Below, in pieces: positions 57,473 through 62,476 of a stretch of DNA of 64,000 nucleotides. The notes beneath the pieces are model-generated. The model had not been told where the DNA came from. It saw only the letters and a program-made list of their open reading frames with translations, and searched no databases. Location of the stretch: NCBI RefSeq assembly GCF_003285545.1, contig NZ_QLNV01000008.1, forward strand, positions 186,001-250,000. Reading direction: 5' to 3'. Made by a program: the position numbers and the translations under genes. Every line of letters begins with the position of its first letter. Position 1 is the stretch's first letter. The stretch is from Sinomicrobium soli. Its GTDB lineage: Bacteria > Bacteroidota > Bacteroidia > Flavobacteriales > Flavobacteriaceae.

Positions 57473-57536
57473 TGGAATGGAGTTAGTACATTTGAGTGGA
57501 GACAGATTTAAAGATGAATAATTAAATTTGTTTACT

Positions 57537-57839
57537 ATGGGAAATCGAATGTTTGATGAACATTTCAAAAAAATGGCTGTAGAGCTTTCGACGGCAAAAG
57601 GCTCGGTAAAAGCAGCGGCAGAGGAACTGGAAATGGATCCGAGTTTACTCAGTAAGTGGCGGAACGATCCCCGCTATAATGGGGGGCATATTGTAATAGA
57701 TAAGCCCGGGCTTAGCGAAGAGGAGCAGAAGATACGCCGTCTTGAAAAAGAGCTGAAAGAAGCCAGAATAGAGCGCGACATCCTAAAAAAGGCGGTCAGC
57801 ATCTTCTCCAAGGGAGATTGGAACGGTTCAGGTTCATAG
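57537..57839 (+). CDS. IS3-family OrfA
   Basis: The product has 100 residues: an N-terminal HTH (FKKMAVELSTAKGSVKAAAE, ELEMDPSLLSKWR) and a leucine-zipper-like helix (EEQKIRRLEKELKEARIERD). OrfA recognises the IS ends and inhibits transposition; fusion with OrfB gives the transposase. The ATG at 57537 is used; a nearby ATG at 57549 is also possible. Confidence 0.9.
   Translation: MGNRMFDEHFKKMAVELSTAKGSVKAAAEELEMDPSLLSKWRNDPRYNGGHIVIDKPGLSEEEQKIRRLEKELKEARIERDILKKAVSIFSKGDWNGSGS
57785..57791 (+). other. Programmed -1 frameshift heptamer
   Basis: A AAA AAG in the orfA frame (CTA AAA AAG), 48 bases before the orfA stop. It is the standard IS3 slippery site, and orfB lies in the -1 frame, so slippage makes the OrfAB transposase. 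Confidence 0.75.
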
Positions 57840-58696
57840 CCTCCAACCTGAACAGGTATCCAGTTGAGAAGATGTGTAAAATGCTACTGGTAAGCAGTAG
57901 CGGTTATTATAAATGGGTAAAGCGCCCATTATCAAAGCGGGTGATGGAAAATGAAGCACTAACGGGTAAGATACGGCAGGTTTATGATGAAAGCCGGGGC
58001 ATCTATGGCAGCCCAAGGATAACAAGACATCTGGTGAACCATGGCGTCCATGTATCACAGCCCAGAGTAGCCAGATTGATGAGAAAGATAGGGCTGAAAA
58101 GTATCACCAGAAAAAAATACCGGATATGCACAACTGATTCATCACACGGTTACCGTATATGTAAAAATCACCTTGACAGGGATTTCAGCACCCAGGAAAT
58201 CGGCAGGAAATGGGTAAGCGACATGACCTATATCACAACCCGGCAGGGATGGCTGTACCTTACTACGGTGATGGACCTTGCCGATAGGAAAATCATCGGG
58301 TGGTCGTTGAGTGATGGCATGAAGGCCGGTCAAACGGTAATACCCGCTTTTAAAATGGCGCTGGCAAACCGTAAACCAAACGGAAGTTTTCTGTTCCATT
58401 CAGATCGTGGTGTACAATACGCATGTGATGAATTCAAGGCTCTACTGAAGAAATATTCGGTCCTGCAGAGCATGAGCCGTAAAGGCAATTGCTGGGACAA
58501 CGCTCCGATGGAAAGCTTTTTCAAATCGATGAAATCCGAATGGACATACCATCATGAATATCTTGACACACGACAGGCATCAGTAGCTGTATTCGAATAT
58601 ATTGAAAGTTGGTATAACAGGAAAAGGCTCCATTCAGCACTAGGTTATTTAACACCAGCTCAGTATGAAAAATTGCTGTCAAGTGAGGCGGCTTAG
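57818..58696 (+). CDS. IS3-family OrfB, DDE transposase domain
   Basis: The product has 292 residues with the integrase fold: GYRICKNHLDRDFS, then the first catalytic Asp in WVSDMTYITTRQGW, second Asp in FHSDRGVQYACDEF and the Glu in NAPMESFFKSMKSEW; ESWYNRKRLHSALGYLTPAQ is the usual end. The reading frame opens 22 bases before orfA ends and is probably expressed as an OrfAB fusion. The catalytic residues are intact, so the IS may be active. Confidence 0.93.
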   Translation: MERFRFIASNLNRYPVEKMCKMLLVSSSGYYKWVKRPLSKRVMENEALTGKIRQVYDESRGIYGSPRITRHLVNHGVHVSQPRVARLMRKIGLKSITRKKYRICTTDSSHGYRICKNHLDRDFSTQEIGRKWVSDMTYITTRQGWLYLTTVMDLADRKIIGWSLSDGMKAGQTVIPAFKMALANRKPNGSFLFHSDRGVQYACDEFKALLKKYSVLQSMSRKGNCWDNAPMESFFKSMKSEWTYHHEYLDTRQASVAVFEYIESWYNRKRLHSALGYLTPAQYEKLLSSEAA

Positions 58697-61048: not shown

Positions 61049-61192
61049 TTTATGGCAAAAGTAAACCGCCAAACACTGCCTCTCAAAGCCAAATCCTACT
61101 ACGTTTTCCAACCCTGTAATAAGCCTTTATAAATTCGACTTCCATAGCAAAATAGAGCAAACAATGGAAGTAATCGCAATACAAAAGTCCAT
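61019..61192 (+). repeat. Direct repeat, copy 2, with terminator, upstream of the HTH pair
   Basis: Second copy of the 59341-59516 repeat. The terminator stem CGGATAGCC/GGTTATTCG differs from copy 1 in both arms but keeps pairing, and it is followed by ATTTTTTG (61041-61048). The core and HTH start are intact here. Confidence 0.75.
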
Positions 61193-61475
61193 ACTGGACG
61201 GAATGAAAAATGAGCTGAAAACACTTTTGGAACTGACCGAAAATGCCACACGGAAATATACCCCGATTTTCAAAGAAGAGCAATGGCTCGATAACCAGGA
61301 AGTCTGTTTGATGATGAAAATTACCAAACGGACTTTGCAGACTTACAAGGATAAAGGGTTATTGCCATATTCCAAACTGAACCGCAAGAATTATTACAAA
61401 CTATCGGACGTACGGGCTTTGCTCGAAACCGGACTGCCGTACAATACCAATGATAATGGATTTACTAACCAATGA
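61164..61475 (+). CDS. Excisionase-like HTH protein 1
   Basis: The product has 103 residues: an N-terminal helix (MEVIAIQKSILDGMKNELKT) and a MerR/excisionase-type HTH (WLDNQEVCLMMKITKRTLQT, YKDKGLLPYSKLNRKNYYKL). Pairs of such proteins are typical of Bacteroidota conjugative elements where they control excision. It overlaps the next gene by 26 bases. Confidence 0.88.
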   Translation: MEVIAIQKSILDGMKNELKTLLELTENATRKYTPIFKEEQWLDNQEVCLMMKITKRTLQTYKDKGLLPYSKLNRKNYYKLSDVRALLETGLPYNTNDNGFTNQ

Positions 61476-61755
61476 AGCCGAGGAAGTCATCGAACAAAAG
61501 GAGATGATATTACAGTTAAGAAACCGTATCGAAGAAATATTGAAAAACTACCGTCCTGTAATGAACGGTGAAATATATCTTTCGGGCGAAGACGTATGCA
61601 AGCTGTTACATATCAGCAGACGGACTTTACAGCAATATCGTGATGACCAAATACTCCCATACATCCAGATAGGCGGTAAAATCATTTTTAAGCAAACCGA
61701 CCTTTTACGGATACTTGAACAAAACTATGTCTTTAATGGAAAAAAGAACAAGTAA
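61450..61755 (+). CDS. Excisionase-like HTH protein 2
   Basis: The product has 101 residues of the same layout: IYLSGEDVCKLLHISRRTLQ, QYRDDQILPYIQIGGKIIFK. A start at the third residue (61456) is possible. It overlaps the upstream gene and thus is translated with it. Confidence 0.88.
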   Translation: MIMDLLTNEAEEVIEQKEMILQLRNRIEEILKNYRPVMNGEIYLSGEDVCKLLHISRRTLQQYRDDQILPYIQIGGKIIFKQTDLLRILEQNYVFNGKKNK

Positions 61756-61795
61756 TGGATTGGGCAATCATATTTCTAGATCGAAACGAGTTTAG

Positions 61796-61803
61796 TATCT
61801 TTG
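61796..61803 (+). promoter_or_regulatory. -7 element before the structured leader
   Basis: TATCTTTG, an exact match to TAnnTTTG, about 45 bases upstream of the structured RNA and 223 bases before the next ATG. Confidence 0.5.
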
Positions 61804-61848
61804 CGATGTAAAATATAGAAATACTTAAAGTGTTTTTGCTTTAAGTCC

Positions 61849-61958
61849 CACATTGAAAACTGGTAATTTTTAGACAACGGGACGATAAGGAAGAACGCTC
61901 ATGCCATAGGCGTGGGCGCTCGCTTATTCGTTGTCGGGTATACCAGTACCTCAATGTG
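61849..61958 (+). ncRNA. Rod-like structured RNA (leader or small RNA), candidate
   Basis: Five nested helices fold about 110 bases into one long hairpin. CACATTGA (61849-61856) pairs with TCAATGTG (61951-61958). ACTGGTA (61859-61865) pairs with TACCAGT (61941-61947). GACAACG (61873-61879) pairs with CGTTGTC (61929-61935). ATAAG (61885-61889) pairs with CTTAT (61923-61927). CGCTCATGCC (61896-61905) pairs with GGCGTGGGCG (61909-61918, two G-T pairs) over an ATA loop. It lies between a good -7 element and the receiver-like gene. A leader, 6S-like RNA or element-specific small RNA are all possible. Confidence 0.65.
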
Positions 61959-62026
61959 CGGTAAGTGTAGTTGCCTGCGCTTCTTTTTTTGTGCAGGGCT
62001 ACATCAACTTTAAAAAGTATGATGTT

Positions 62027-62476
62027 ATGGAAACCGGTACACCTCAACAAAAAATTACCCTTGCATTTATCAATGATAAAAGCCCAATTTTAGATGTCAT
62101 TTGCAACGACCTTGTTTCATCCGGAAAGGAAATCCTATGTCGGTCAGAAAGTATTGAGGATGGACTATCTCAATTGTTTTTATTGAATAAACTTCCCCAA
62201 ATCTGTATTATTGACTTGGACTTTTATGAGCAAAGTGTGTTAGCACAGCTTCAAAAATTAAGGATTGAATATCCTACAGTAAAACTAATTGCCCATAGTG
62301 ATATAGATGATGAGAGAGTTGGGAAATCTCTTTTGGAGATTGGTTTCACAGGTTATCTGCTTATTGGTAGCGATGCAGATGATTTTATAAAGGCCATCGA
62401 GGGAGTTTCCAACGGCAAAAGATATTTTAGTATGGGAGTAGCGGAAATAGCACAGGAATATTTTGGTAATACCTAA
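62027..62476 (+). CDS. Receiver-domain-like protein of a mobile element
   Basis: The product has 149 residues resembling a response-regulator receiver domain without an output domain: ITLAFINDKSPILDVICNDL, then QICIIDLDFYEQSV, where the phosphoacceptor position is Asp in IIDLD, and VKLIAHSDIDDERVGKSLLE, GFTGYLLIGSDADDFIKAIE. The usual acidic pair after the first strand is replaced by ND, so phosphorylation is questionable. The ATG at 62027 is used since the longer frame would translate the structured leader. Confidence 0.75.
   Translation: METGTPQQKITLAFINDKSPILDVICNDLVSSGKEILCRSESIEDGLSQLFLLNKLPQICIIDLDFYEQSVLAQLQKLRIEYPTVKLIAHSDIDDERVGKSLLEIGFTGYLLIGSDADDFIKAIEGVSNGKRYFSMGVAEIAQEYFGNT

Follow-up and report, generated by a model that had tools for sequence, protein, structure and literature searches.

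Upstream of a receiver-like gene in a conjugative element of Sinomicrobium soli, a stretch of about 110 bases can be folded into a single rod, which raises the question of whether this locus encodes a structured RNA and, if so, how such an RNA might act on the genes next to it. The locus is part of a window of 64,000 nucleotides, the whole stretch of DNA that was analysed (contig NZ_QLNV01000008.1, positions 186,001 to 250,000), and all positions given below without a contig or locus name are those of the window. A preliminary description had proposed a candidate new structured RNA at 61849-61958 with five nested helices of 8, 7, 7, 5 and 10 bp and an ATA tip. Fold prediction, shuffled controls and homologues confirm the rod as a real structure: the minimum free energy (MFE) of the 110 nt is -48.2 kcal/mol, compared with -24.6 +/- 3.1 kcal/mol for 200 dinucleotide shuffles, none of which was equally stable (0/200; z = -7.67). 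The helices of 8, 7, 7 and 10 bp and the AUA (ATA) tip are found in the MFE fold, with 6 plus 2 bp predicted in place of the helix of 5 bp. The perfect -7 element upstream (TATCTTTG at 61796-61803), the pyrimidine-rich tract behind the rod (TTCTTTTTTT at 61981-61990) and the start codon of the receiver-like gene 68 bases past the rod (ATG at 62027) also held. The proposed boundaries were too narrow; the conserved RNA extends from about 61819 to 61990 and additionally contains a 5' hairpin, a 3' tail and a pseudoknot strand (61845-61849, partner 61879-61883). From 5' to 3', the element is composed of a TAnnTTTG promoter-like site, the 5' hairpin, the pseudoknot, the rod, the 3' tail and a U-run (Table 1). 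TAnnTTTG is the -7 consensus of Bacteroidota promoters. Several features described below had not been part of the preliminary description: the pseudoknot, the alternative pairing of the tail as a terminator, the presence of many copies, the neighbouring SusC and HTH genes and the guides of dCas12f.

Table 1. Features of the element and its surroundings in the window.
Feature	Position	Strand	Basis or remark
Small HTH_17 gene in the mobile element, upstream of the RNA	61164..61475	+	Pfam HTH_17, E 7.5e-9
Second small HTH_17 gene	61450..61755	+	Pfam HTH_17, E 1.8e-12
TATCTTTG, TAnnTTTG -7 element of a Bacteroidota-type promoter	61796..61803	+	Sequence match
Whole match to the family's covariance model	61819..61979	+	127.8 bits (locus L001:1560-1720)
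Covariance model match in genome coordinates	C42:247819-247979	+	Genome search
P1, 5' hairpin ACTTAAAG/CTTTAAGT	61823..61846	+	Weakest helix in the family, 79.1% of cells paired
Pseudoknot strand GTCCC, partner 61879-61883	61845..61849	+	Covaries: CUC/GAG, CUU/AAG, CCC/GGG
P2 5' strand, partner 61951-61958	61849..61856	+	Two-sided changes in 7/8 pairs
P3 5' strand ACTGGTA, partner 61941-61947	61859..61865	+	99.7% paired; two-sided changes in 5/7 pairs
P4 5' strand GACAACG, partner 61929-61935	61873..61879	+	Two-sided changes in 6/6 pairs
Pseudoknot strand GGGAC	61879..61883	+	Pairs with 61845-61849
P5 5' strand, partner 61923-61928	61884..61889	+	95% of cells paired
P6 apical hairpin, 61896-61905 with 61909-61918, ATA tip	61896..61918	+	100% of cells paired; one-sided changes only
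Apical 3' strand GGCGTGGGCGCTCGCTTAT, variant form of the site matching dCas12f guides elsewhere	61909..61927	+	Sequence comparison
P2 3' strand, end of the rod as first described	61951..61958	+	Pairs with 61849-61856
Tail TGCCTGCGC	61972..61980	+	Sequence
U-tract TTCTTTTTTT, immediately 3' of the tail	61981..61990	+	T-run enrichment in homologues
GTGCAGGGC, potential hairpin with the tail around a U-rich loop in mobile-element copies	61991..61999	+	By eye
Receiver-like gene, 149 aa, presumed under the leader	62027..62476	+	Response_reg, E 0.014, 16.0 bits

The first of the two HTH_17 genes is taken to be excisionase-like. The Response_reg score of the receiver-like gene lies below the Pfam cut-off of 30.2 bits, and a similar gene is also found behind the element in L003/L075. 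The covariance model score of the window copy (L001) is not independent evidence, as this copy is one of the model's own sequences. Two overlapping ORFs at 57528-58696 resemble an IS3-type transposase by eye.

The preliminary description had named an Rfam search and base-pair covariation in homologous leaders as checks, and a lack of covariation or a coding sequence running through the helices as possible refutations. Rfam 15 gave no match at the curated gathering thresholds over the whole window, and a search of ten element loci at E<=1 yielded only three weak matches, all of them outside the element. Coding through the helices can be rejected: no reading frame is conserved, the lengths of the core fall into all three classes modulo 3, and any given frame is open in no more than 25 of 130 sequences. 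A 6S-like RNA had been suggested as an alternative, which is supported by the rod shape; 6S-Flavo is a rod-like RNA of similar size in flavobacteria. However, no 6S match covers the element, the covariance model finds seven element copies in the S. soli genome, and the only match of this genome to 6S-Flavo (RF01685) is located elsewhere (C33:60751-60871, 98.8 bits with a cut-off of 85). Membership of the 6S family is thereby refuted, and a 6S-like RNA is all but excluded.

A blastn search with positions 61760-62060 gave matches in 19 of 99 related genomes, often at several places in each and chiefly in the rod. Twenty-five copies in sense orientation could be aligned end to end from the 5' hairpin to the 3' tail (alignment A1, from which L018, L019, L027, L028 and L030 were left out; L027, L028 and L030 were included in the later alignment A2). 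A pattern scan of named genomes detected at least 119 stretches in Flavobacterium, Chryseobacterium, Elizabethkingia, Pedobacter, Niabella, Parabacteroides and other genera, 80 of which were carried forward, and the covariance model has one match in each of these 80 loci and in each of two viral contigs. In a sample of 395 Bacteroidota genomes, the model matched 50, distributed over 26 of 171 genera; matches below about 60 bits in the more distant classes were counted without individual inspection. In Bacteroides sp. 519, Parabacteroides sp. PF5-9 and a Tannerellaceae MAG (L183, L193 and L209), copies with weaker scores of 65-69 bits are followed after approximately 50-70 nt by a RibD_C-like gene.

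The homologous leaders covary strongly, as judged against slid and shuffled controls. In A2, which contains 57 distinct sequences, 94.2% of the cells of the named structure are paired, compared with 35.6-41.5% when the partners are slid by one to three columns, and the covariation score of 0.345 drops to 0.033-0.065 in the same controls. Changes on both sides of a pair were found for 25 of 46 pairs. Helices P2, P3 and P4 vary in sequence and keep their pairing, while P5 and P6 are well paired without two-sided changes in A2; in alignment A3, P5 shows two-sided changes in two of its six pairs, and P6 shows none there either. The pseudoknot connects the bases just before P2 with those between P4 and P5, and 99.4% of its cells are paired over three pairs, all three of which change on both sides in A2. 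The A2 counts lean toward the model, which was fitted on A2, and the A2 rows include related copies. In the A3 rows outside A2 (74 distinct sequences), 74% of the cells are paired for P1, 94% for P2, 96% for P4, 93% for P5, 93% for the pseudoknot and 91% for a further helix, T, which is described below; the loci of A3 were chosen by a pattern that fixes the 5' strand of P3 and the apical strand, so that the counts for P3 and P6 are uninformative there. Comparison shows that the RNA family is real and widespread in Bacteroidota, in the absence of transcript data. The claim of a candidate new structured RNA is thus supported by the lack of an Rfam match and the strong covariation, neither of the two sequence-based refutations was borne out, and transcription itself is only inferred.

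A second pairing involves the 3' tail, which reads GAGTTCCACGCC or close to it in most copies and GTTGCCTGCGC or close to it in copies of the window's type. The tail complements the 3' strand of the apex, GGCGTGRGCTC, the same strand that is used by P6; therefore, the apical hairpin and the terminator-like helix T compete. When the T structure is counted together with the small hairpin P3b, 95.6% of cells are paired, compared with 36.3-51.5% for slid partners. The two strands also change together: among 131 sequences, the tail carries a T in 8 of the 10 with an A at the opposite apical position and in 9 of the 121 with a G. In the 17 sequences with window-type tails, the standard register places G opposite G, and duplex folding gives the pairing in a shifted register; in the window copy, the tail at 61964-61979 pairs best with 61910-61925 (-15.9 kcal/mol). 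The apical 3' strand is the best upstream partner of the tail in 130 of 130 sequences, with a mean of -17.4 kcal/mol compared with -11.2 kcal/mol for shuffled tails, and the strands of P6 average -15.1 kcal/mol. A run of at least five T within 16 nt 3' of the tail is present in 101 of 129 copies and in 6% of 2257 background windows, and a run of at least four T in 118 of 129 copies and 14% of background windows; 11 of the 129 copies lack even TTTT after the tail. At the other end, 117 of 130 distinct copies carry TAnnTTTG just upstream of the modelled start, counted in the 60 nt around its upstream side, compared with 52 of 2266 background windows (2.3%).

Tail and U-run are thus arranged like a terminator, with a stem in competition with the apical hairpin. 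An attenuator leader would be expected to possess two mutually exclusive helices, one of them directly followed by a U-run, and the element shows this arrangement, on comparative evidence only. The MFE fold of the full leader is the rod and not T. Furthermore, T crosses P2-P5 and cannot coexist with them in a nested fold, so its formation needs either co-transcriptional invasion or a bent, pseudoknotted fold. Terminator riboswitches and attenuator leaders likewise combine a structured 5' domain, two exclusive helices that share a strand, a U-run and a gene behind it. Unlike these, the element has no known ligand and no Rfam family, it is followed by varied genes, and T crosses the rod.

The genes adjoining the element include SusC/TonB receptors, ECF sigma-dCas12f operons and response regulators. 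Among 82 loci, i.e., the 80 from the pattern scan and the two viral contigs, 55 have a minus-strand ORF within 450 nt upstream. The upstream (45 of 55) and downstream (65 of 74) ORFs that were scanned for domains were chosen by hand, leaving out truncated and very long ORFs as well as small ones of doubtful status. HTH_3 was found in 30 of the 45 divergent upstream ORFs and HTH_26 in 30 of the 45, with the overlap unresolved, and the divergent HTH proteins are highly diverse (mean column identity 14%). The intervals between HTH gene and element (e.g., in L009, L011, L013 and L026) contain differing palindromes, as judged by eye, and it is conceivable on this basis that each small HTH protein has its own operator. 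The 65 first downstream ORFs comprise 24 with TonB Plug, seven with Response_reg, six with Sigma70_r2 and three with RibD_C. In the window and its relatives on mobile elements, the RNA precedes receiver-like or other small genes, and the next start codon of the mobile-element copies mostly lies 44-51 nt past the tail. At SusC loci, approximately 200 to 1400 nt separate the tail from susC, and a direct role as a leader is therefore less certain there. A conserved micro-ORF of 32-46 codons ending in (I/L)LF(K/R/A)KKPKxP(I/V)-stop occurs within about 440 nt past the tail at 14 loci (L005, L007, L016, L023, L037, L060, L064, L150, L172, L186, L196, L200, L211 and L214) and precedes susC wherever the next gene was inspected.

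It is possible that the element is not a leader at all, but a free-standing, trans-acting sRNA that has its own promoter, is always terminated at the U-run and acts, for instance, on SusC mRNAs or RNA polymerase. This would agree with the promoter-like site and the terminator-like end, the several paralogues per genome and the large gap before susC in many loci. There is also a precedent in FopS of Bacteroides thetaiotaomicron, a family of sRNAs by which SusC mRNAs are repressed (PMC11697453) and which shares with the element the many copies per genome, a Bacteroidota promoter and the link to SusC. However, the short distances to start codons in the mobile-element copies and the covariation of the tail with the apical strand speak against this hypothesis. 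In addition, FopS has a length of about 65-70 nt, with a single-stranded 5' region containing the R1 seed and one terminator hairpin (PMC11697453), whereas the element comprises about 170 nt, is pseudoknotted and adjoins genes. Membership of the FopS family was rejected because size and fold differ; this comparison was made without the R1 sequence itself. Another hypothesis is derived from put, a processive antiterminator RNA: the rod would be the active part and modify RNA polymerase, and the U-run would merely be one terminator that is overridden. The compact conserved rod, the varied downstream genes and the long distances to some of them fit this idea, but it leaves the covarying complementarity of tail and apical strand just before the U-run unexplained and is considered unlikely.

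The element is also linked to dCas12f-sigmaE, for which transcription initiation on the downstream side of the R-loop has been reported (Hoffmann, Sternberg and colleagues, 2025 preprint). In five of the first 20 loci with long flanks (L067, L069, L070, L077 and L083), three of which belong to the S. soli genome, the element precedes genes that encode an ECF sigma factor and a protein of 364-365 amino acids; in L077, the sigma factor was called as two ORFs. In L069, the protein of 364-365 amino acids matches the PDB entry 'Nuclease-deactivated Cas12f' along its length (E 4e-195); the sigma factor matches the RpoE chain of PDB 9n9q (E 6e-111). A conserved scaffold with a variable 3' end directly follows the dCas12f gene, and the variable end is inferred from its sequence to be the guide. 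In two of the three S. soli dCas12f operons, the guide is GCGTGGGCTCTCTTAT..., which reproduces the apical 3' strand of some elements exactly. In the 4.6 Mb genome, this 16-nt guide has exact sites only in both guide genes and in two elements (L068 and L071), one of which sits upstream of susCD. The sites with one mismatch are three elements and the site with two mismatches is one element, so that all sites with zero to two mismatches are guide genes or elements; each of the 12 remaining sites has three mismatches, and a reversed control pattern gave 24 matches in total. A 5'-G next to the target is the site motif of dCas12f-sigmaE, and other copies of the element meet the corresponding test of a guide match with an adjacent 5'-G. 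The window copy fails it: its strand GGCGTGGGCGCTCGCTTAT, a variant that occurs once in the S. soli genome, has four mismatches to the guide, is absent among the sites with up to three mismatches and is matched by no guide found. Because of these mismatches, the window copy is probably not, or only weakly, addressed by dCas12f.

Of the 12 guide rows in the retrieved loci, eight start with (G)GCGTGRG like the apical strand, and several of these mismatch after about 8-12 nt (by eye); the remaining four (L067, L092/L123, L194 and L248) do not match the element. One pattern match inside a receiver gene (L056) was discarded, and L248 was counted without its surroundings. GGCGTG is present in 131 of 131 element sequences, and 80 loci had been preselected by a pattern that requires it. 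The guide of the third S. soli operon (L067, contig C41, after dCas12f) is CAAATTTTTCGGG...; it is unrelated to the element, and its target is therefore probably different. L083 (genome G036) has a tandem pair of dCas12f guide RNAs, whose guides differ slightly and each begin like the apical strand. Hits to dCas12f below 1e-100 were obtained in 8 of the 395 genomes, with a weak TnpB-like hit in two. Six of the eight dCas12f genomes contain the element; G177 and G451 have none by the covariance model, and G470 and G482 have none at the dCas12f locus itself. A guide-scaffold pattern was detected in 3 of 395 class genomes but missed the dCas12f-bearing G177, G451 and G470 and is thus a weak control. 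Conversely, no dCas12f was detected in 44 of the 50 element genomes, and the element therefore has a role of its own, which the guides exploit.

These data bear on two further hypotheses, both of which are regarded as very unlikely. The element could be a mere DNA target site of dCas12f-sigmaE with an incidental RNA structure, for which the shared start of the guide rows and the exact guide sites in the S. soli genome can be cited; however, most element genomes lack a detectable dCas12f, and two-sided base-pair changes occur in helices outside the guide site. Alternatively, dCas12f-sigmaE could use the element itself as its guide RNA and the sequence past the tail as the guide; in favour of this, the element is located just upstream of sigmaE-dCas12f operons. 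However, for 20 copies, the 22 nt after the tail had no advantage over shuffled 22-mers when matched to the surrounding 12-17 kb (mean best prefix scores of 11.2 and 10.5, respectively; exact stretches were checked in 11 copies), a search that did not cover whole genomes. Together with the distinct scaffold behind the dCas12f gene, this led to the rejection of the element as a dCas12f guide RNA, on sequence evidence alone.

The reading that is preferred, by a modest margin, is a cis-acting, pseudoknotted leader that functions as a transcription attenuator and that dCas12f-sigmaE can address or bypass; the switch, its signal and termination are inferred. According to this model, RNA polymerase would start at the TAnnTTTG site and transcribe the rod. 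If P6 holds its own 3' strand, the tail would remain free, thereby allowing read-through into the downstream gene, which is the receiver-like gene of the conjugative element here and susCD or sigmaE-dCas12f elsewhere. If the tail instead captures the apical strand, helix T would form beside the U-run and transcription would stop, leaving a short RNA of about 170-180 nt. The decision would be made by some ligand, protein or RNA of unknown identity that binds the pseudoknotted body, and the varied downstream genes do not point to any single ligand. For many copies outside mobile elements, the promoter is probably under the control of the small HTH regulator encoded divergently. Where a genome has dCas12f-sigmaE, a guide that equals the apical 3' strand would address several copies at once, and the RNA-guided sigma factor would initiate a new transcript 3' of this strand, thereby bypassing the attenuator: with a start some tens of bases downstream, the transcript would begin past the apical strand but before the tail and could not form T. 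The support for the attenuator is comparative, without transcript data, and signal-dependent termination is inferred and ligand binding conjectural. A bolder reading, which is considered clearly less likely than not as a joint claim, holds that the element is a new, phylum-wide class of pseudoknotted switch RNAs that control import and mobile-element operons in Bacteroidota and that the guide of dCas12f-sigmaE, a domesticated CRISPR effector, overrides the switch at several copies, including that of its own operon; the guide would have evolved against the most conserved strand of the family, and transcription would start between the two competing strands.

The element resembles the known dCas12f-sigmaE systems (PDB 9n9c, 9n9m, 9n9o and 9n9q) in that three S. 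soli operons lie behind elements and two of their guides match the element; it differs from them by its wider distribution (50 compared with 8 of 395 genomes) and by a covarying RNA fold of its own. The literature searched yielded no description of the element as an RNA, a scope that excluded the dCas12f preprint and the supplement of PMC9723704, in which a supplementary table lists 64 structured 5' regions of F. psychrophilum (PMC9723704). Given the literature left outside the search, some of this may have been reported before. In kind, the element probably is an attenuator-like leader; it appears to be new both as a family and as a natural target of RNA guidance. Few switch RNAs have been characterised in Bacteroidota, and for many SusC-SusD importers the mode of control is not understood. 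With its wide distribution and extensive covariation, the element represents a directly testable layer of control, and its overlap with the guides suggests a natural role of dCas12f-sigmaE, which may reach a set of loci via one shared RNA element.
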